From: a virus
DNA: 33,854 nt
Virus record (IMG/VR): IMGVR_UViG_3300048925_000246
Span: 1-33,854 of that record
Reading direction: 5' to 3' (one strand)
The notes below the pieces were generated by a model. The model did no database searches and was not told the origin of the DNA. It saw only the letters and a program-made list of their open reading frames with translations. A program made the position numbers and the translations under genes. Of the stretch, positions 1-6,537 are shown piece by piece (within the stretch, counting starts at the first letter, position 1; each line of letters begins with the position of its first letter).

Positions 1-152
1 TCGATTTGCAGCGGTGCGCCAGTGATGGGGAGGGAAACACCGGCGGCGGTCGCGGCTAATGTCAGGTTGGCCAGAATTTTCTCAGGGGTACGGCGTTCTT
101 CGGGCAGGTTCAGCAGCTCGATCAGTAGGGTGTCAATCAGTTTGCGGTCCAT
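1..152 (-). CDS. Partial phage hypothetical protein (N-terminal 50 residues)
   Basis: This gene is cut by the left window edge. It begins MDRKLIDTLLIEL and reads open to the edge. The ATG has a good Shine-Dalgarno (GAGGT, 8 nt upstream), and it overlaps the 3' end of the upstream 60-residue gene by 20 bp, as is usual in a tightly packed early operon. I do not recognise the family. The visible part is helical and acidic/leucine-rich, then becomes Ala-rich. It is the last visible member of the leftward early operon. Confidence 0.65.
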   Translation of the reverse strand, partial: MDRKLIDTLLIELLNLPEERRTPEKILANLTLAATAAGVSLPITGAPLQI

Positions 153-315
153 GTGTGTTACCTCGGGGGTGGTTCCAGGCGATCTCGACGTGGGTGCGTA
201 CCAGCTCGCGTAGGTGCTCCGGTACTTCTGCCAGCGCGGCGATGCGTTCCTCACGGGTTCGCATCGCCGTGATCTGGCGGGCGTACTGGCGCGGCCAGTC
301 TTCGGGCTGTCTCAT
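133..315 (-). CDS. Small phage protein, unknown function (60 aa)
   Basis: A short charged protein beginning MRQPEDWPRQYARQI, with an Arg/Glu-rich centre and a helical ELVRTHVEIAW segment. It resembles small uncharacterised proteins common in Pseudomonas phage early operons (DUF7696-like), but I recall the family only loosely. Its ATG overlaps the stop codon of the upstream antirepressor-like gene by one base, and its end overlaps the next gene, so all are probably translationally coupled. No function can be assigned. Because its low-complexity Arg/Glu composition could favour chance frames, support comes mainly from gene packing. Confidence 0.65.
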   Translation of the reverse strand: MRQPEDWPRQYARQITAMRTREERIAALAEVPEHLRELVRTHVEIAWNHPRGNTHGPQTD

Positions 316-605
316 TACGCGACTTCTCGCGGGTCGGTTACGGCAGGTGGGGCTGGGCGCTCAATACCGATCTGCCCGGCCAGCCAGGAAATGCCAATAT
401 CGGTCACGCGCGTTGTGCGCTTGTATTGCATGCCGAGCCTCTCGTGAAACCAGCGGCTCTCGCGAGTAACTAGAAAGTCTTTGGTTGCGGCGGGGTTAGC
501 TGGCAGGTTTTTTTTATCCAGAAGACCTTTGTCGCGCATGCGTTTCATCAACTCGCGGTGACCCAAACCTAGGCGCTCGGCTGCGCGTTTGAGGGATAGG
601 CTCAT
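315..605 (-). CDS. KilAC-type phage antirepressor-like protein (96 aa)
   Basis: The protein starts MSLSLKRAAERLGLGHRELM and continues with a lysine-rich turn and a C-terminal part containing RESRWFHERLG and TDIGISWLAGQIG. This order (winged-helix-like opening, then a conserved aromatic strand and a closing 'G..WL...' motif) is typical of the KilAC/ANT C-terminal domain of phage antirepressors. Here it stands alone, without the usual N-terminal BRO or Rha domain. The start has a GAGGTG Shine-Dalgarno 7 nt upstream. By family analogy it may bind DNA or oppose the CI-like repressor encoded upstream. That role is inference; the domain assignment is fairly good. Confidence 0.7.
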   Translation of the reverse strand: MSLSLKRAAERLGLGHRELMKRMRDKGLLDKKNLPANPAATKDFLVTRESRWFHERLGMQYKRTTRVTDIGISWLAGQIGIERPAPPAVTDPREVA

Positions 606-614
606 GGCGGCACC

Positions 615-1175
615 TCATGCGGCGGCTGCGAGGCTATTGCGGTAGCCCTGCAGGAACTGGTTGAGGTTTTCAGCCAAGATTGCGTAGGCGTGCTGGTTAT
701 CGGCGGGCAGGGTGAGCACGCAGCCGGCGTCGTCGATTTCGAGCTTAACGATGTAGCCGCCGCGTGGGTTGCGCTGGATTTGTACAGAGGGTTCCAGTTC
801 GTCAGCGATCAGATGGTAAATGCCGCGCCCACGTCGGATTGCCAGACGTAGGGTGGCTTCTATATCACTGACAGCCTCATGTTCGTCTACGTCAGGCACG
901 CCGGTAGGGCTGCGGCCATTGGCGATACCTTCGATAAAGCTCGCTACGCGCGTGGCGTTGTTTTTGCGGTGCTTATCGAGGGTGACTGAGGTATTGCGCG
1001 TCCCGCAGATGCGCACCATTACCGTGATGCCATCGGTGCATTGCTCGATCTCGACCTGGGCCGCTACGAAGTGGCGATCATCACGCGAGTGCAGGGTGTG
1101 ATTGAAGGTTCCGCTGAGGTGCACCTGAGCCTGGAGGCGGATATAGGCGGCAGCGTTGAGAGATAGCCTGTTCAT
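615..1175 (-). CDS. Phage early protein, unknown function (186 aa)
   Basis: I chose the ATG at 1175 over a more distal in-frame start because GGAGG lies 9 nt upstream and because the ATG overlaps the stop of a 56-residue gene (ATGA). The protein begins MNRLSLNAAAYIRLQAQVHL. Its first half looks beta-rich and alternates polar and hydrophobic residues. The second half contains VDEHEAVSDIE, a basic RLAIRRGRG stretch and a final helical segment ending in an Ala run. No catalytic motif is apparent and I do not recognise the family. It lies inside the leftward early operon between the switch and the antirepressor-like gene, so a role in early takeover or regulation is possible but unproven. Confidence 0.75.
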   Translation of the reverse strand: MNRLSLNAAAYIRLQAQVHLSGTFNHTLHSRDDRHFVAAQVEIEQCTDGITVMVRICGTRNTSVTLDKHRKNNATRVASFIEGIANGRSPTGVPDVDEHEAVSDIEATLRLAIRRGRGIYHLIADELEPSVQIQRNPRGGYIVKLEIDDAGCVLTLPADNQHAYAILAENLNQFLQGYRNSLAAAA

Positions 1176-1342
1176 GCTGCACGCCCTCCATCGTCTGGAT
1201 TGAAGGGGGTTGGCGTTGGGCTGGTGGTTGATTTGCGTTTGGTGGGGGCGAAGGCGCAGCCGTGGATTATTGCTAGGCGGCGCACCTCGAAAACGCGGCT
1301 TTCTGGGCACGTTGGTAGGACGTGCAACGTTGCGGTTTGCAT
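1172..1342 (-). CDS. Small phage early protein (56 aa), first gene of leftward operon
   Basis: This short frame encodes a protein starting MQTATLHVLPTCPESRVF and ending in a Thr/Pro-rich tail. Its TGA overlaps the ATG of the next gene (ATGA), and GAGG lies 9 nt before its own ATG; both support real translation. It is the first gene behind the operator-controlled leftward promoter at 1379-1407. Small proteins of this look are common at this place in Pseudomonas phages, but no function is known to me. A competing, longer in-frame extension of the downstream gene covers the same DNA in another frame; coupling and ribosome-binding sites favour two genes. Confidence 0.6.
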   Translation of the reverse strand: MQTATLHVLPTCPESRVFEVRRLAIIHGCAFAPTKRKSTTSPTPTPFNPDDGGRAA

Positions 1343-1378
1343 GGGAATTGCCTCGCTCTGTGGTAGGAGAGTGAGGCA

Positions 1379-1407
1379 AAATTAGCAACAGCTAATTTTT
1401 TATGCAA
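1379..1407 (-). promoter_or_regulatory. Leftward early promoter (PL-like)
   Basis: On the minus strand, TTGCAT (1402-1407) is followed after 17 bp by TAATTT (1379-1384). The spacer contains a perfect operator palindrome. The two hexamers match consensus only moderately, but the layout is the same, base for base, as the rightward promoter beyond the repressor gene (TTGCGT, 17 bp, TAATCT, same operator position). It would transcribe the operon from the 56-residue gene to the left edge, separately from repressor transcription. Confidence 0.6.
1381..1396. promoter_or_regulatory. Operator OL1: perfect palindrome ATTAGC-N4-GCTAAT
   Basis: The 16-mer ATTAGCAACAGCTAAT has 6-bp perfect arms around a 4-bp centre. 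It overlaps the -10 element of the leftward promoter, so bound repressor or Cro would block RNA polymerase. The same consensus occurs at 2248-2263. Confidence 0.75.
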
Positions 1408-1421
1408 TAGCAAATGCTAAA
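1406..1421. promoter_or_regulatory. Operator OL2: near-palindrome, same consensus
   Basis: AATAGCAAATGCTAAA matches the operator consensus ATTAGC-N4-GCTAAT at 5 of 6 positions in each arm. Its edge overlaps the -35 of the leftward promoter. Its centre lies 25 bp from OL1, the same distance as between OR1 and OR2 on the other side of the repressor gene. Confidence 0.7.
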
Positions 1422-1422
1422 A

Positions 1423-2187
1423 TTAAATGTCGATGTATTTTGACGACTTCAAGATTGCGGCCACGTAGTGGACTTTTTCGACGAGATGCTCATCCAAAAA
1501 GATCGGAGGATAGCCGTCGCTAATGCTGTCGAATCTATATTGTCCGTCCCGGAGGTAAATGAACTCCTTGACCATAGACCTGCCATCCGTTGTTTTTACG
1601 AGCACCTCGTCGCCGGTCTGATAGCGATGATTTGGTTCAATAAGAACAAACTCCCCGCTTTTGATGCGTGGGTGCATGCTGCTACCCACCATTTTGAGGC
1701 CATAGGCGTCGGGGTCGGAGCTGACTATATCTATGTAGCCATCACCATGTCCGGCTGGGTAGTCAAGCGCGTCAAAGTAACCATCAGATCCCAGCATAGC
1801 TTTACCTACTACGGGCACCGGTGCTGCCTGGCGGTTCTTAGCGGACCACTCCCTTTCCTCGGCAGCACGTTGGGCGGTTTCGTTGATCGCTGCGTTGAAA
1901 AACGCGGGATGGGGAAGTGTTGGCGGTTTGAGGTCAAGTGCTAGCCATTTTGCCGTTATGCGGTTCTGGTCTGCTGCAGAGTAATTGCCTGTTGTTAGGA
2001 GTTCTGCTGGAACAGCTAATTTTTTAGCAAGATTCATCGCAGCGCGATCCCCTAGCGTCCGATGACCGTTAAGGATCTGCGAAAGATAGGAGGCGTCAAC
2101 ATCGGTATGAGCTCCTGCAAAATCCTTCAGCTGGTTTTCACCAATGAGGGCCTTGAGGATCGTTAAGCGTTTTTCGTAAATATCCAT
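1423..2187 (-). CDS. CI-like phage repressor, HTH plus S24 peptidase-like domain
   Basis: This 254-residue protein should maintain lysogeny. Residues about 5-65 form an HTH_3-like fold (LKDFAGAHTDVDASYLSQILNG is the recognition region). Residues about 125-245 are a LexA/S24 domain with the Ser motif VGSSMHPR (Ser170) and the Lys motif SMVKEF (Lys207). The usual cleavage dipeptide Ala-Gly or Cys-Gly is not obvious; the expected region reads GKAMLGSDG (Leu-Gly at about 132-133). No Shine-Dalgarno precedes the ATG. A possible -10 (TAGATA, 2200-2205) would start transcription only a few bases upstream, as in leaderless lambda cI mRNA. It is divergent from cro, with operators between them and a second operator pair just behind its stop codon. 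Confidence 0.9.
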   Translation of the reverse strand: MDIYEKRLTILKALIGENQLKDFAGAHTDVDASYLSQILNGHRTLGDRAAMNLAKKLAVPAELLTTGNYSAADQNRITAKWLALDLKPPTLPHPAFFNAAINETAQRAAEEREWSAKNRQAAPVPVVGKAMLGSDGYFDALDYPAGHGDGYIDIVSSDPDAYGLKMVGSSMHPRIKSGEFVLIEPNHRYQTGDEVLVKTTDGRSMVKEFIYLRDGQYRFDSISDGYPPIFLDEHLVEKVHYVAAILKSSKYIDI

Positions 2188-2207
2188 AGATAAATCATGT
2201 ATCTAGC

Positions 2208-2223
2208 GTTAGCAGCTTGTAAA
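2208..2223. promoter_or_regulatory. Operator OR3 (degenerate), next to repressor promoter
   Basis: GTTAGCAGCTTGTAAA matches one arm of the consensus at 5 of 6 positions and the other at only 3 of 6. It abuts OR2 and lies just upstream of the proposed -10 for the repressor gene, where a weak site would allow autoregulation in the manner of lambda OR3. The match is poor, so this call is tentative. Confidence 0.4.
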
Positions 2224-2238
2224 TTACGTTCTGCTATT
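2223..2238. promoter_or_regulatory. Operator OR2
   Basis: ATTACGTTCTGCTATT matches the arms ATTAGC and GCTAAT at 4 of 6 and 5 of 6 positions. Its last two bases are the first two of the rightward -35 hexamer, exactly as OL2 overlaps the leftward -35. Centre-to-centre distance to OR1 is 25 bp. Confidence 0.6.
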
Positions 2239-2265
2239 GCGTGGCGGATTAGCGTTTGCTAATCT
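2237..2265 (+). promoter_or_regulatory. Rightward early promoter (PR-like)
   Basis: TTGCGT (2237-2242) and TAATCT (2260-2265) are separated by 17 bp that contain OR1, whose final TAAT forms the start of the -10. It would drive cro and the rightward early genes. The 20-bp leader leaves room for the strong GGAGGTG ribosome-binding site of cro. Confidence 0.6.
2248..2263. promoter_or_regulatory. Operator OR1: perfect palindrome ATTAGC-N4-GCTAAT
   Basis: ATTAGCGTTTGCTAAT has perfect 6-bp arms and overlaps the -10 of the rightward promoter. It has the same arms as OL1 and differs only in the 4-bp centre. Confidence 0.75.
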
Positions 2266-2287
2266 CGTGGTTGTTCTGGAGGTGAAC

Positions 2288-2548
2288 ATGACTCTACTCG
2301 ACTACCTAAAGAGTTTGGATGCGGCGCAGCTCGAAGCATTTGCCGCTTGCTGTGGCACATCGGCAGGACAGCTTAAGCAAATTGCCTATGGTAATCGTCG
2401 ATCCAATGCGGGTCTCGCAATTGCTATTGATAGGCAGACCACAGGTCAAGTCACTTGCGAATCGTTACGTCCGGATATCGATTGGGAGTATTTGCGAATG
2501 CAGGTAAATACAGCAGTTGTTGCGGATGCCTCAGCTCAAGCGGCTTAG
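2288..2548 (+). CDS. Cro-like HTH transcriptional regulator
   Basis: The start at 2288 is preceded by GGAGGTG 3-4 nt upstream, much better than the alternative start 51 bp earlier, which lies inside the operator region. The 86-residue product begins MTLLDYLKSLDAAQLEAF and contains a compact helix-turn-helix (CCGTSAGQLKQIAYGNRRSN) of the YdaS/Cro type, followed by a short PDIDWEYL segment. Being divergent from the repressor gene and directly behind the operators fits a Cro that represses repressor synthesis and early promoters. It is the first gene of the rightward early transcript. Confidence 0.85.
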   Translation: MTLLDYLKSLDAAQLEAFAACCGTSAGQLKQIAYGNRRSNAGLAIAIDRQTTGQVTCESLRPDIDWEYLRMQVNTAVVADASAQAA

Positions 2549-2572
2549 AAAAAAGGCGACCGAAAGGCCGCC
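2549..2572 (-). terminator. Minus-strand intrinsic terminator converging on cro
   Basis: Read on the minus strand this is GGCGGCC, loop TTTC, GGTCGCC (one G-U pair), then six T residues. Read on the plus strand the stem has an A-C mismatch and no T run follows, so it works only for leftward transcription. No protein gene is seen on that strand here, which points to an untranslated leftward RNA from the region to the right. Confidence 0.65.
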
Positions 2573-2821
2573 CAGTTCCTCCCGATACACACCACCACAG
2601 TGCTGTCGGGTCGCGATAAAGGTAGGCGGGCAAACCACATGCAAACCGCTTCCCTCTATCGCGCAACCAAGGCACGGATGCCTTGGGTTGCCTGCTAACC
2701 CACCACGGTCTGCAGGCTGTAACGGCAAGGCACATGCAGAGCGTGTGCCTTGCCATTGGGGTGCAGCCGGACTTCCTACCACAGAGCAACCGGCTGCATG
2801 CGACCACTTGTGAGTGACCAC
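2549..2821 (-). ncRNA. Candidate structured antisense RNA between cro and the cII-like gene
   Basis: No convincing gene occurs here, but stems are unusually dense: CCCGA/TCGGG (2581-2610), CGCGATA/TATCGCG enclosing GCGG/CCGC (2612-2663), a 12-bp stem with one bulge (2663-2691), an 11-bp perfect stem GGCAAGGCACA/TGTGCCTTGCC (2724-2754), and a 9-bp perfect stem TGCAGCCGG/CCGGCTGCA (2762-2798). A minus-strand promoter candidate sits at 2828-2856 and a minus-strand terminator at 2549-2572, giving a predicted RNA of about 270 nt. Phage precedents are lambda OOP and the C4/CI antisense RNAs of P1/P4; I cannot verify kinship. The stems could also act in the plus-strand leader of the cII-like gene. 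Confidence 0.4.
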
Positions 2822-2827
2822 GGCACA

Positions 2828-2856
2828 ACTGTATCAAACAGGCGTGCGGCGGTCAC
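2828..2856 (-). promoter_or_regulatory. Candidate leftward promoter between cro and cII-like gene
   Basis: On the minus strand GTGACC (2851-2856), a 17-bp spacer and TACAGT (2828-2833) match sigma-70 hexamers at four of six positions each. Transcription would start near 2821. In lambda the equivalent place holds PRE, the CII-activated leftward promoter; here transcription would stop at 2549 before reaching the repressor gene. Confidence 0.35.
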
Positions 2857-2880
2857 TGGCAGAGTTTTTGGAGTTTTGCC

Positions 2881-3390
2881 ATGAACCGTAAACAGTTCAA
2901 TTCCATTGAGCGCGCACGGCGTTCGCTGTTGACCCTACCGCAAGCTTTGCTCCACGCGGCACGTGATTATCCTGGCGGTGCCACTGCTATTGCCGCTATC
3001 GACGGCGGCAACGCCACTACCCTTAATCATAAGCTGAGCCTGACCAACACCAGCCACACGCCCAATATCGGCGATCTTGAATTGGTGCTGGATGCAACGC
3101 GCGATCCGCGCATTGTAGATGCGTTGTTGCATCCCATTGGCTGGGTGGGTATCGACGTTTCCGAGTTGAGCGACACCGACACGGCGCAGTCGCTGATGGC
3201 AAGCATTGGCGAGTTGCTTTCTCGTGAGGGAGAGTTGGCCACGCATGTATCGGCTTCATTGACTGATGACAAATTGGACGATGCCGAACTGGCCGAGTTT
3301 GAGCTGCTGGCTGAGCGCATGGTGCAGGCTGTATTCAAGTTGCGCGCGGTGCTCCGCAAGATGCATGCGGAGGATCTGACTTATGTCTGA
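2881..3390 (+). CDS. Phage regulatory CII-family protein (CP76-like)
   Basis: The 169-residue protein starts MNRKQFNSIERARRSLL and contains the family signature: a helix AARDYPGGATAIA, then NATTLNHKLSLTNTSHTPNIGDLE, typical of the phage regulatory CII (CP76) family, in which this region forms a lambda-repressor-like DNA-binding fold. The C-terminal half is acidic and helical and probably oligomerises. Known relatives control the choice between lysis and lysogeny. A GGAG lies 8 nt before the ATG. It is the first gene after the hairpin-rich leader and overlaps the next gene by 8 bp. The leftward promoter just upstream (2828-2856) would be an attractive target; that is inference. Confidence 0.85.
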   Translation: MNRKQFNSIERARRSLLTLPQALLHAARDYPGGATAIAAIDGGNATTLNHKLSLTNTSHTPNIGDLELVLDATRDPRIVDALLHPIGWVGIDVSELSDTDTAQSLMASIGELLSREGELATHVSASLTDDKLDDAELAEFELLAERMVQAVFKLRAVLRKMHAEDLTYV

Positions 3391-3601
3391 CAACGCAGAT
3401 GTTGCTGATAACGTCATTGCTCTTAATCTTGCCGTGGCCATGGCCGCGCGACCTACTGCCAATCCTGGCCAATGTACGCTCAGGTGCGCGGACTGCGGGG
3501 ATGCCATTCTAGAGGCTCGGCGGTTGGCAATGCTTGATCGCGGCTGTACGCGCTGCACTGACTGCCAGGACCTGGCAGACCGGCGTGGAGTACGGGCATG
3601 A
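3383..3601 (+). CDS. DksA/TraR-family zinc-finger protein
   Basis: This 72-residue protein carries the compact four-cysteine finger of small phage TraR/DksA relatives: CADC (Cys35, Cys38) and CTDC (Cys58, Cys61), with an Ala-Arg-Arg motif between them. The N-terminal 30 residues are a hydrophobic/acidic helix. Family members such as F-plasmid TraR bind RNA polymerase through the secondary channel and reprogramme promoter activity; the same is inferred here. It overlaps the cII-like gene by 8 bp and the primase gene by ATGA, so the three are coupled. Confidence 0.85.
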   Translation: MSDNADVADNVIALNLAVAMAARPTANPGQCTLRCADCGDAILEARRLAMLDRGCTRCTDCQDLADRRGVRA

Positions 3602-5820
3602 CTAATCACGAACTACTTGATGATGTGTTGGCCCAGTTGCAGGACTACGGGCTTAAACCAGAAACCCCACTTGTGATTGGCAAGCGGACGCGTTGCGAGT
3701 GCGACGGTGATAAGGCTCCGGAGAAAACGGGCTGGTACGTGATCTATGAACATCTGACTGGCGGCAAGACCTTCTATTGCGGCGCGTTTGGCGACTGGCG
3801 CCAGGGTGAAAAGGGCAGTTGGCAGAAGATCAAGGTCAAGGGTGGCCGGTTGAGCGCTGAGGATCGGGCGGTGATGCGGGCTCGGGCCGAGGAGGGGCAG
3901 CGTAAGGCGGCTGAGGCCGAGGCGCGCAAGCATCGAACTGCCGCGCGCCGTGCTGCGGGCATGTGGAAGCATTTGGAGGAAAAGGGCCACTGCGCTTATC
4001 TGGATGCGAAGCGTGTGGCCGGTTTCGGCCTGCGTTTTAAACGCAAGTCGGGCTGTGCGCTTGTACCGATGCGCAATGTGAAAACCAGAGAGGTGATCGG
4101 CCTGCAGGTGTTGTTCCCTGAGGTGCAGCCCAAACTGGGGCGTAATAAGACCTATTGGCCGGCGGGCTTGGAGAAAGAGGGGGCAGTGCATTTGATCGGC
4201 CCTGAGCCTGAGCCCGGTGACGTTATTCTGGTGTGCGAGGGTTACGCGACTGGGGCGAGCTTGCATATGGCGACCGCGCTGACGGTGGCGGTGTGCTTTG
4301 ATGCTGGCAATCTGTTGCCGGTGGCGCAGGGGTTACGGGTGCGTTATCCCGGTCGCCCGCTGCTGTTCTGTGCGGATGATGATTGGAAAACCCAGGTGCA
4401 GGGTAAGCCGTTCAACACGGGCAAGGTGAAGGCGGAGAATGCGGCGGTGGTCGTTGGTGGCCAGGTGGTGTTGCCGATCTTCGATAATGACCGTGAGGCT
4501 GGTTGGACGGATTTTAATGACCTGCACTGTGCCCAGGGCTTAGAAGCGGTGCGCCGCCAGGTGTTGGCGCTGGTGAGGCCCGCGACGGATGCTGGATGGC
4601 ATGAAAAGCTGCTGCGGTCTGCTAAGGGCGGGATTCTGGCGCACCCCTATAACGTCGGATTGATTCTGAGTAATGACTCGCGCTGGAGCGGGGTGATTGC
4701 GTGGGATTCGTTCGCGTCGAAAATTATTAAGGCGCGCACACCGCCGTTTGGTGGCAGTGCAGGTGACTGGGAGGATATCGACGATATCAAGGTGATGATG
4801 TGGCTGGCCGAAGTCTACGGGTTGTCCGTGAAGTCACCGAATGTGTTTGAGGCAGTAAACTCGGCTGCACATGACAATGCCTTTCATCCTGTGCGCGAGT
4901 ATCTGAATGGGTTGGTGTGGGATGGCACGCCGCGACTGGAGCGGTGGCTACAGGATCGGCTGGGCGTTCCAGATAGTGAGTACACGCGTAAAGTGGGCAA
5001 GCGTTGGATGCTGTCTGCTGTGGCACGGGTGTTCCAGCCTGGCTGTAAGGTGGATGTGATGCTCATTCTGGAGGGGTTGCAGGGTGAGGGTAAGTCGACG
5101 GCCGCCGGCATACTTGCCGGTAAGTGGTTTATGGATACGGCATTCGATATGAGCAGCAAGGATGCGTATCAGGCGATCCGGGGTAAGTGGATCATTGAGA
5201 TGGCGGAGCTGGATGCGCTGAACAAGTCCGATACGACAAAGGCCAAGCAATTTGTTTCATCGGCTACGGACCACTACCGAGAGAGCTACGGACGGCGGCA
5301 TTTGAGTGTGCCGCGCCAGAGTGTATTTATCGGAACGACTAACCAGGATGAGTACCTAAAGGATGACACGGGCAACCGCCGTTATTGGCCGGTGACGTGT
5401 ACGAAGGTTGATCTGGATGGCCTGCGGGCAGAGCGTGATCAACTCTGGGCCGAGGCGGTAGCCTGTTTTCGCGCGGGTGATATTTGGTGGGCTGAGCGTG
5501 AAGAGAGCGAACTGTTTGCGGCTGAGCAGGATAAGCGCTTCCAGGCAGATATGTGGGAAGAACCAGTGGTTCACTACCTGGTAGCCAAACATATTGGCGA
5601 AACGGTGACGGGCGCGTATCTGTTGCAGCATGCGCTGAATATCGACCCGAGCCACTGGGGCAGACCCGAGCAGATGCGGATCGGCAAGATTATGCATCGA
5701 TTGAAATGGCCGCGCCGACGCCAGACTAGCGGCTACGTTGGAGTGCGTGGTTATGAGTATGTGAAACCGGCCAATTGGAAGCGCGGGACGGTCGAGCCCA
5801 GGCAGGAGTCTGCATTTTGA
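3598..5820 (+). CDS. Phage replication primase-helicase (Toprim + VirE-type ATPase)
   Basis: This 740-residue protein combines priming and helicase functions. An N-terminal region with CEC (33-35) and a basic linker (about 85-120) precedes a Toprim-type primase domain with VCEGYATG (Glu214) and the acidic CADDD (258-262). The C-terminal half is a VirE/D5-type superfamily-3-like ATPase: Walker A EGLQGEGKST (492-501, Lys499), an acidic Walker B-like WIIEMAELDAL (531-541), a sensor-like FIGTTNQDEYL (577-587) and DDTGNRRYWPV (589-599). It should unwind the origin and prime replication. No separate helicase loader or O-like gene is seen. The ATGA overlap with the zinc-finger gene fixes the start. 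The origin-like inverted repeat lies 430 bp downstream of its end. Confidence 0.92.
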   Translation: MTNHELLDDVLAQLQDYGLKPETPLVIGKRTRCECDGDKAPEKTGWYVIYEHLTGGKTFYCGAFGDWRQGEKGSWQKIKVKGGRLSAEDRAVMRARAEEGQRKAAEAEARKHRTAARRAAGMWKHLEEKGHCAYLDAKRVAGFGLRFKRKSGCALVPMRNVKTREVIGLQVLFPEVQPKLGRNKTYWPAGLEKEGAVHLIGPEPEPGDVILVCEGYATGASLHMATALTVAVCFDAGNLLPVAQGLRVRYPGRPLLFCADDDWKTQVQGKPFNTGKVKAENAAVVVGGQVVLPIFDNDREAGWTDFNDLHCAQGLEAVRRQVLALVRPATDAGWHEKLLRSAKGGILAHPYNVGLILSNDSRWSGVIAWDSFASKIIKARTPPFGGSAGDWEDIDDIKVMMWLAEVYGLSVKSPNVFEAVNSAAHDNAFHPVREYLNGLVWDGTPRLERWLQDRLGVPDSEYTRKVGKRWMLSAVARVFQPGCKVDVMLILEGLQGEGKSTAAGILAGKWFMDTAFDMSSKDAYQAIRGKWIIEMAELDALNKSDTTKAKQFVSSATDHYRESYGRRHLSVPRQSVFIGTTNQDEYLKDDTGNRRYWPVTCTKVDLDGLRAERDQLWAEAVACFRAGDIWWAEREESELFAAEQDKRFQADMWEEPVVHYLVAKHIGETVTGAYLLQHALNIDPSHWGRPEQMRIGKIMHRLKWPRRRQTSGYVGVRGYEYVKPANWKRGTVEPRQESAF

Positions 5821-6176
5821 TCCCTGAAATGGATGAGATGTTGAAGTTGTGGGCGCTCGATATGCATGGCTGTGGGGGTGCAAATGGATCTGCTAGCACC
5901 ATGTTGGGCCAGTTGATGGATTGCAAGGGAGAACTGATTCGTGGCACGCGCGGTGGTTCGAGGATGCTGCTGCCATGGAGTGCGGACATTGAGGTGATAG
6001 TAAACAAGCATCTGTCTTGGGAGCTGGGGCAGGTGGTACGCGAGCATTACCTGAACCATGAGAGCGTAGAGCGTCAGAAGTGGGCGCATTGTGGATGCGG
6101 ACGTACGCAGTTCTATGAGCGCTTGCATGCTGCCCATCTGGAGATCGCAGTTTTGTTGCTGGAGCGCGCAGCGTGA
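5817..6176 (+). CDS. Antitermination protein Q-like (119 aa)
   Basis: I place the start at the TTG that overlaps the primase stop codon (TTGA), because AGGAG lies 8 nt upstream; the first ATG, four codons later, has no such site. The protein contains LWALDMHGCGGANGSASTM and ends in a sigma-region-4-like helix-turn-helix (LGQVVREHYLNHESV, then CGCGRTQFYERLHAAHLEI). This combination is typical of small phage antitermination Q proteins. Its place, last in the early operon and directly before a promoter-terminator pair and the late genes, fits that role well. The motif match is from memory of the family, so a different late regulator remains possible. Confidence 0.65.
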   Translation: MIPEMDEMLKLWALDMHGCGGANGSASTMLGQLMDCKGELIRGTRGGSRMLLPWSADIEVIVNKHLSWELGQVVREHYLNHESVERQKWAHCGCGRTQFYERLHAAHLEIAVLLLERAA

Positions 6177-6251
6177 TTGTGCTTTTTGGCCCACCTTGCC
6201 TACTGGTGTTATTGCTGGTGGAGCAGACGCAGACCGCGCCAATCGGGGCTC

Positions 6252-6384
6252 TGACCTACTGTCCTACCTTTTCCGGGATTTCCCCGCGTAGTGCGTGCAC
6301 CCTCGCACGCGCGTGTCACGCGCAGCGTTTGTTAATCTCTCTCTATACGGGGGAAAAGGTAATAAATAGTAGGACAGTAGGTCA
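6252..6384. repeat. Long-range inverted repeat with 8-bp internal repeats; origin candidate
   Basis: TGACCTACTGTCCTAC (6252-6267) is perfectly inverted at 6369-6384, 101 bp apart. A second inverted pair lies inside, TACCTTTTCC (6265-6274) and GGAAAAGGTA (6352-6361). Each outer arm is two 8-bp repeats of the form GNCCTACN, so there are four iteron-like copies in a dyad. The interior contains alternating GC hairpins (around 6290-6325). No gene covers it. Proximity to the primase gene suggests a replication origin; an RNA structure in the late leader is the alternative. Confidence 0.5.
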
Positions 6385-6431
6385 GCGCTTTGATTTTTGT
6401 GGGCTGTAAGTGGCGCACTTGTCTTTAGTTA

Positions 6432-6449
6432 GGTGGGTCAGGTCGGTCA
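6432..6449 (+). repeat. Tandem 9-bp repeat GGTGGGTCA / GGTCGGTCA
   Basis: Two adjoining 9-mers differ at one position. They lie about 90 bp upstream of the late promoter candidate, in a gene-free region. They could be binding sites for a regulator, but two copies are weak evidence. Confidence 0.3.
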
Positions 6450-6537
6450 ATGCCCTGCGGGGCGGTAGCCAGTTACGTTATATGTCCGCTGATTGCAGGT
6501 GTGAGGCCGTTGATTGCGGGGTGGCAGCGCGAAACGC

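Follow-up and report, generated by a model that had tools for sequence, protein, structure and literature searches.

A very probable lambda-type lysogeny switch with paired operators, and matched elements in both early leader RNAs, in a family of temperate phages

Genes of the immunity region

The window analysed here, the whole 33,854-nucleotide stretch of IMG/VR record IMGVR_UViG_3300048925_000246, is viral, and its named relatives belong to Pseudomonas, namely P. fluorescens (99% repressor identity) and four others (79-82%). It carries cI-like and cro-like genes that diverge around an operator region holding the promoters PR and PRM, a CII-type gene behind cro, and a second operator-promoter module, OL/PL, which lies behind cI and points away from OR (Table 1). 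Membership of the repressor in the S24/LexA-type group is supported by matches to Pfam PF00717 (Peptidase_S24, E 5.8e-13) and phrog_4 (transcriptional repressor, E 7e-28), and by an AlphaFold model (mean pLDDT 82, pTM 0.49) whose best PDB fold matches were LexA and lambda repressor, whereas a PDB search with the CI sequence returned no matches. The Ser and Lys columns of the S24 dyad (S170 and K207) are conserved among 30 aligned repressors and kept in the window's CI, the domain being absent from the 185-aa repressor of L053. At the aligned cleavage place the window's CI reads KAMLGS, without the canonical Ala-Gly, and the repressors of L064, L137 and L052 read QAGE. Across 30 diverse repressors with diverging C-terminal halves, six helix-turn-helix residues (S33, S36, Q37, G41, H42 and R43) never vary, a pattern that fits fixed operators.

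The Cro-like protein belongs to the YdaS family by sequence and is encoded at the position of cro, and it matched PDB chains 8co2/8c7k ("antirepressor protein Cro") at E 5e-7. Together with the HTH and S24 domains of the repressor and the CP76-family gene behind cro, this gene order is, as judged from sequence, that of a lambda-type immunity region, in which CI is of the S24 family and encoded on the minus strand, Cro is of the YdaS family, a CII is present, PL stands behind cI and PR before cro. Farther along the left operon, a gene at 315-605 (minus) encodes an ANT/KilAC antirepressor domain (PF03374), a possible induction route without need for repressor cleavage. Just past the cro stop codon, at 2554-2573 (minus), there is a leftward terminator-like hairpin with a T run that recurs with similar sequence and location in most close relatives and would face transcripts arriving from the cII side.

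Table 1. Coordinates of the immunity-region features in the window; promoters and transcript starts are predictions.
Feature	Position	Strand	Description
First gene of PL operon	1172-1342	minus	56 aa; phrog_35204; counterpart at the same place in most relatives
PL leader palindrome/hairpin	1346-1378	minus	TTGCCTC-aCTCT-CCTACCAC-AGAGc-GAGGCAA; loop carries element A (1355-1368)
PL	1379-1407	minus	-35 TTGCAT 1407-1402; 17 bp spacer; extended -10 TG-C-TAATTT 1384-1379; predicted start ~1372
OL1	1381-1396	minus	ATTAGCTGTTGCTAAT; 0 mismatches, perfect palindrome inside PL; conserved
OL2	1406-1421	minus	TTTAGCATTTGCTATT; 2 mismatches, weaker; last two bases are the start of the PL -35
cI-like repressor gene	1423-2187	minus	254 aa; N-terminal helix-turn-helix and S24 peptidase-type C-terminal domain
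PRM	2194-2223	minus	-35 TTTACA 2223-2218; 18 bp spacer; -10 CATGAT 2199-2194; then 6 nt to the cI ATG
OR3-like site	2208-2223	plus	GTTAGCAGCTTGTAAA, GTTAGC-N4-tGTAAA; abuts OR2 with centres 15 bp apart; lies over the -35 and spacer of PRM
OR2	2223-2238	plus	ATTACGTTCTGCTATT; 3 mismatches, weak inner half ATTAC; last two bases are the start of the PR -35
PR	2237-2265	plus	-35 TTGCGT 2237-2242; 17 bp spacer; extended -10 TG-C-TAATCT 2260-2265; predicted start ~2272
OR1	2248-2263	plus	ATTAGCGTTTGCTAAT; 0 mismatches, perfect palindrome inside PR
Cro-like gene, YdaS family	2288-2548	plus	86 aa; PF15943, E 1.6e-11; phrog_35
Structured PR leader (cro-cII gap)	2549-2880	plus	z -6.5; a hairpin loop carries element A TCCTACCACAGAGC at 2774-2787
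Element B	2638-2649	plus	CATGCAAACCGC; in PR leader; elements A and B recur in the PL leader in the same sense
CII-like regulator gene, CP76 family	2881-3390	plus	PF06892, E 2.5e-20; phrog_101; behind cro

Operators and promoters

A preliminary description of this DNA had proposed that OL and OR share one geometry, and direct reading of the sequence places all four sites and both promoters where it had put them. OL1 and OR1 are exact ATTAGC-N4-GCTAAT palindromes, each accompanied, upstream in the direction of its promoter, by a weaker site at 25 bp centre to centre; the centres of the two pairs (1401 and 2243) lie 842 bp apart, and OL2 ends 1 bp past the cI stop codon. At both PL and PR an extended -10 (TGCTAATNT) lies inside the operator with its TG supplied by the operator half-site, a feature absent from the preliminary description, and the -10 pattern TAATNT is conserved across relatives.

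The exact 16-mer, observed twice in the window, averaged 0.0033 occurrences per shuffle over 300 dinucleotide shuffles, and the longer module pattern, likewise observed twice, never occurred in them; chance palindromes were accordingly rejected as the source of OL1 and OR1. By letters alone the weak sites are at chance level (7 sites with at most 3 mismatches in the window against 8.45 expected); their support comes from position and conservation. OL2 has 1-2 mismatches in 51/51 non-redundant loci. A near-match inside a gene at 1509-1524 and the other 3-mismatch matches were discarded as chance-level. A 16-nt sequence made up of part of OL1 and spacer (AACAGCTAATTTTTTA, 1387-1402) recurs without change inside cI, at 2011-2026.

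The two modules had also been called identical, and this did not survive comparison: OR2 differs from OL2, and OR alone has a third conserved site. The inner half of OR2 reads ATTAC, conserved and weak, against TTTAGC in OL2, probably because that half carries PRM. The OR profile from 51 loci (GTTAGCAaaNtGTAAATTACgNttTGCTATTGC-N7-aTTAGCaaTTGCTAATcT) takes in the third site left of OR2, and the two together form a larger palindrome around GTAAATTAC. This OR3-like site is degenerate and kept at 2-5 mismatches among the 51 loci, compared with 4-11 at the same offset from OL, where neither the profile nor the mismatch table revealed a third site; as in lambdoid phages, OR thus has a third, here degenerate, operator overlapping PRM. 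OR2 and the OR3-like site are poor palindrome matches that overlap by one base, and it is doubtful that both are occupied at once, since they lie only 15 bp apart with that shared base, unlike in lambda, in which operator spacing is 23-24 bp.

A TTTAC-type -35 with a 17-18 bp spacer and 5-7 nt to the cI ATG was found in 47/51 loci, and an SD-like motif lies upstream of cI in 1/51 compared with upstream of cro in 32/48. Given how closely PRM abuts the cI start codon and how rare such a motif is there, the cI mRNA is likely to be leaderless, as in lambda and CP-933P.

Conservation and the slot between cI and OL

Among loci found through the repressor protein, OR was present in 29/29 and OL in 28/29, the remaining contig breaking off within cI. 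Searching with a profile of 30 diverse repressors, we kept 80 of 247 relatives and saw both modules by strict criteria (no more than 2 mismatches in the 16-mer, and TTGC at its set position) in 59/80 loci, OR only in 5, OL only in 7 and neither in 9; as this set was built on recognition-helix peptide patterns, it misses repressors with other helices, and several of its contigs repeat those of earlier sets. In most of the 21 incomplete loci these positions hold similar sites whose letters have drifted, TTGT commonly standing in place of TTGC, while L182 is cut by a contig end and L220 has an OR1-like site without a clear OL.

Scanning with the operator pattern yielded at least 120 stretches with the module. 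In the loci picked in this way (L034-L153) the selection itself guarantees one module; the other module, OR3, PRM, leaders and distances are free of selection, apart from the pairing requirements, which demanded TTGC at the -35 and allowed the site at -25 no more than 5 mismatches. The pairing set comprised the window and 151 loci, from which 18 were dropped as having no repressor N-terminus in the stretch. Of the 134 loci with a repressor N-terminus, 130 have OR, 94 have OL and 90 have both, many of the incomplete ones being cut by contig ends. The 51 non-redundant loci, drawn from the window and this collection, were selected by k-mer similarity and are not independent; the distance from OR1 to the cI start codon is 59-62 bp in all of them. 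The geometry does have exceptions: LPPA56 (L032) has OL, but its OR2 and OR1 stand farther apart, at ~33 bp. L007-L023 had been suspected of being tailocin clusters, a reading given up because cro and cII neighbours are present.

Of the earlier proposal that a repressor-controlled PL stands right behind cI with only the repressor gene between the modules, the position of PL holds and is conserved in repressor-found relatives; the compactness is true of this phage and varies in the family. The OL-OR distance ranges from 773 to 2985 bp among the 51 loci, being at most 910 bp in 27, just under 1000 bp in 2 and over 1000 bp in 22, and the extra length falls mostly between cI and OL, where it is filled with varied genes. 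In L087 these are a RexA-like gene (PF15969, E 2.4e-54) and a RexB-like gene (PF15968, E 4.6e-5, below its cut-off; phrog_14878, E 1.9e-5), in L053 and L152 HipA-like kinase genes (PF20613) behind the repressor, and in L137 an MqsA-like gene on the opposite strand. The compact arrangement here therefore represents the short side of the family's spread, and the slot serves as it does in lambda.

Matched elements in the early leader RNAs

The PL and PR leaders, compared in the window as 1332-1378 (minus) and 2549-2880 (plus), share elements A and B (here TCCTACCACAGAGC and CATGCAAACCGC) in the same sense; across the family element A takes the forms CCTCTCACCA, CCCACTYACCA and CCTACCACAG, and element B the form GACACAGCAC. 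The longest string common to both leaders of a phage averaged 11.7 nt in the sense orientation, 7.2 nt antisense and 7.1 nt against shuffles of two-base blocks (45 of 51 loci testable). Common strings of at least 10 nt occur in 37/45 phages, against 3% of shuffles and against 26% of pairs taken across phages (1752 pairs whose PL leaders are dissimilar). A second, protein-found set gave such strings in 20/24 non-redundant PL leaders in the sense orientation and in 1/24 antisense. In PR leaders, hairpins with a CYNACC(A/C) loop number 3.24/kb (51 in 15.75 kb), against 0.25/kb in the antisense orientation and 0.34/kb elsewhere in the loci. Their loop letters match within one phage and vary between phages, for example CCTCTCACCAAAGA in L035 and CCACTTACCAAGG in L055.

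The lambda nut and HK022 put elements are same-sense, sequence-matched elements carried by both early transcripts, at the start of PL and after cro. The elements described here resemble them in occurring as same-sense matched copies at these two places, and differ in the repeated PR-leader hairpins, in the rarity of boxA and in that no N-like protein was found. A boxA-like sequence (TCTTTNACA) is present in the PL leaders of 4/51 loci and absent from those of the window and of the other loci (47/51 in all). Among the four, L053, L094 and L152 have a PL leader without element A, and L093 fits the loose element A pattern; the PR leaders of all four (L053, L093, L094 and L152) have no CYNACC(A/C)-type hairpins, and their right operons also differ. 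No N-like protein was matched among 9 early proteins scanned, and the first left gene was modelled as a low-confidence strand-helix-strand protein without N-like resemblance. Window positions 1-6500 had no Rfam match at E up to 1, and open PMC text yielded no description of nut, boxA or put elements in Pseudomonas phages. Matched elements occur in both the PL and PR transcripts of one phage, as in a nut-type system, which fits a nut/put-like role. Since this phage has no boxA and the early proteins scanned gave no N-like match, we did not file the elements as nut sites; they are a nut/put-like candidate, perhaps new.

Discussion

The evidence taken as a whole makes us highly confident that OL and OR serve as operators in a lysogeny switch of the lambda type. 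From the sites, their geometry, conservation and distances, and the gene identities, all established by sequence and comparison, we infer how this switch would work with regard to binding, cooperativity, PRM activation, Cro preference and looping. CI dimers would bind OL1 and OR1 across the spacer and extended -10 of PL and PR, and also, probably cooperatively, the weaker OL2 and OR2 next to the -35s, and would thereby shut both early operons in the lysogen. At OR2 the repressor probably activates PRM, its own promoter, since the centre of OR2 lies at about -43 relative to the predicted PRM start, the place used by lambda CI. PRM, lying over the OR3-like site, would yield leaderless cI mRNA, while the YdaS-family Cro probably binds OR3 first and shuts PRM. 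OL and OR could be joined by looping. On loss of CI, PL and PR would fire outward, PL into the left operon including the ANT-domain gene, and PR through cro and the structured leader into cII and the replication genes. The hairpin-loop elements common to the two leaders may then be the site of a shared post-initiation control, such as antitermination.

In lambda an OL pair beside the cI gene is the arrangement that loops, and the 25-bp spacing kept at both OL and OR is as expected of paired dimers on one helix face. Both points count against a switch without looping or strong cooperativity, in which OL and OR would be repressed independently and OR3 would be only the -35 context of PRM or a Cro site. 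We regard this variant as possible but on balance rather improbable: OL is without a third site and the OL-OR distance varies from 773 to 2985 bp, and a two-site OL would work as described for 933W, which has three OR and two OL sites (PMC8065619) and for which a lack of apparent cooperativity is reported (PMC3317979). Pfam files YdaS as "Bacterial toxin YdaS", so that the PF15943 match could suggest that the divergent pair is a toxin-antitoxin module with the palindromes as its autoregulatory sites. We rejected this as extremely unlikely, given that the YdaS-like PDB chains are named Cro and that YdaS and YdaT of CP-933P are described as acting as Cro and CII analogues and not as a toxin-antitoxin pair (PMC8630535); moreover, the gene next to it in this phage encodes an S24 repressor, followed by a PL operon, and a CII gene lies in front. 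It is also very unlikely that OL is a promoterless operator array that strengthens repression at OR, with the left operon read through from PRM. The PL -35/-10 hexamers are weak by consensus count, promoter prediction named neither PL nor PR, and no leftward terminator-like site was found between cI and OL in the window; yet PL equals PR in -35 type, spacer, extended -10 and operator overlap, its TAATNT is conserved, and several relatives have a GCGGG-T7-8 stretch, like an intrinsic terminator, upstream of OL.

As regards the leader elements, we tentatively suggest, with rather less than even confidence, that a large phage family (Pseudomonas where the host is named) combines a fixed operator module with an undescribed nut/put-like RNA system marking both early transcripts. 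Under this proposal, and at the same level of confidence for the whole, elements A and B in the PR-leader hairpin loops and at the start of the PL transcript would serve a common antitermination or processing factor, and the four members without the PR hairpin array would have a classical boxA in the PL leader instead. Alternatively, the elements may not be antitermination sites but signals for translation or mRNA processing, or a lock that guards the first left gene against read-through, which we hold to be about as plausible and similarly short of probable. In many phages the arms of the PL palindrome start inside the -10, so that RNA started at PL would lack much of the 5' arm while PRM read-through RNA would contain it, and the window's PL leader folded from 1373 onward gave no stable hairpin (z -0.29). 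The letters of the arms differ between phages with complementarity kept, and in the folded read-through RNA the region upstream of the gene-1 start is less accessible in 40/40 distinct leaders, which are not independent (z-scores in the PL-leader accessibility analysis are from mononucleotide shuffles). The palindrome may therefore act in PRM read-through RNA as a lock on the first left gene; open PMC text held nothing specific on read-through locks. However, a lock alone is insufficient, since the loop letters recur phage by phage in PR hairpins that are not upstream of this gene; a lock role and an antitermination-type role are not mutually exclusive.

The lambda immunity region has the order OL/PL - rexBA - cI - PRM/OR/PR - cro - cII. 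The present region resembles it in gene order and strands, in paired operators ~25 bp apart over PL and PR, in a PRM with adjacent OR2 and a predicted leaderless cI, and in the Rex-like genes that L087 carries between cI and OL. It differs in its operator sequence, YdaS-family Cro, CP76-family CII and two-site OL, in an OR3 that abuts OR2 at 15 bp, in having nothing between cI and OL, and in that no N gene was identified. The nearest demonstrated parallel is CP-933P, a cryptic prophage of E. coli O157:H7 (PaaR2/YdaS/YdaT), for which a YdaS Cro, a leaderless CI analogue, PL -35/-10 hexamers identical to those of PR and operators at both promoters were shown by experiment (PMC8630535); our phage has the same type of Cro, a predicted leaderless cI and matching PL/PR hexamers. 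As far as CP-933P is described there, its PaaR2 is small (~15 kDa with His tag) and not an S24 repressor, it has three OL sites, paaA2-parE2 stands between repressor and PL, and the operator letters are other ones. For the count of three OR and two OL sites, the Stx phage 933W is nearest (PMC8065619). In its C-terminal half, CI shares ~51% identity with the CI of phi24B, a phage whose immunity region is noted as 933W-like. The operator sequence and hosts of 933W differ from those of this phage, in which, moreover, OR3 overlaps OR2. Lambda-like immunity regions with PL behind cI have been described in the Pseudomonas phages D3 and vB_PaeP_YA3 (PMC7326022; D3 as cited there). According to the available text of that report, both differ in having an ORF between cI and PL, and the YA3 Cro is P22-Cro-like; the likeness to these phages is one of gene layout.

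Conclusions

The original reading of OL and OR is right in substance and ordinary in kind, that of a lambdoid immunity region, with corrections concerning OR3, PRM and compactness; the switch design is already known, lambda-like immunity regions of Pseudomonas phages included. For a widespread family of temperate phages (Pseudomonas where the host is named), the analysis provides an operator code that can be tested, together with a complete map of the switch. It predicts that phages differing in the repressor C-terminus and in their cI-OL cargo have a common operator specificity, and perhaps immunity, and it identifies the cI-OL slot, with its RexA/RexB-like, HipA-like and MqsA-like genes, as an accessory-gene site outside enterobacteria. 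The part that merits experiment is the set of common leader elements, which, if they are antitermination or processing signals, would constitute a new system for the control of early transcripts.
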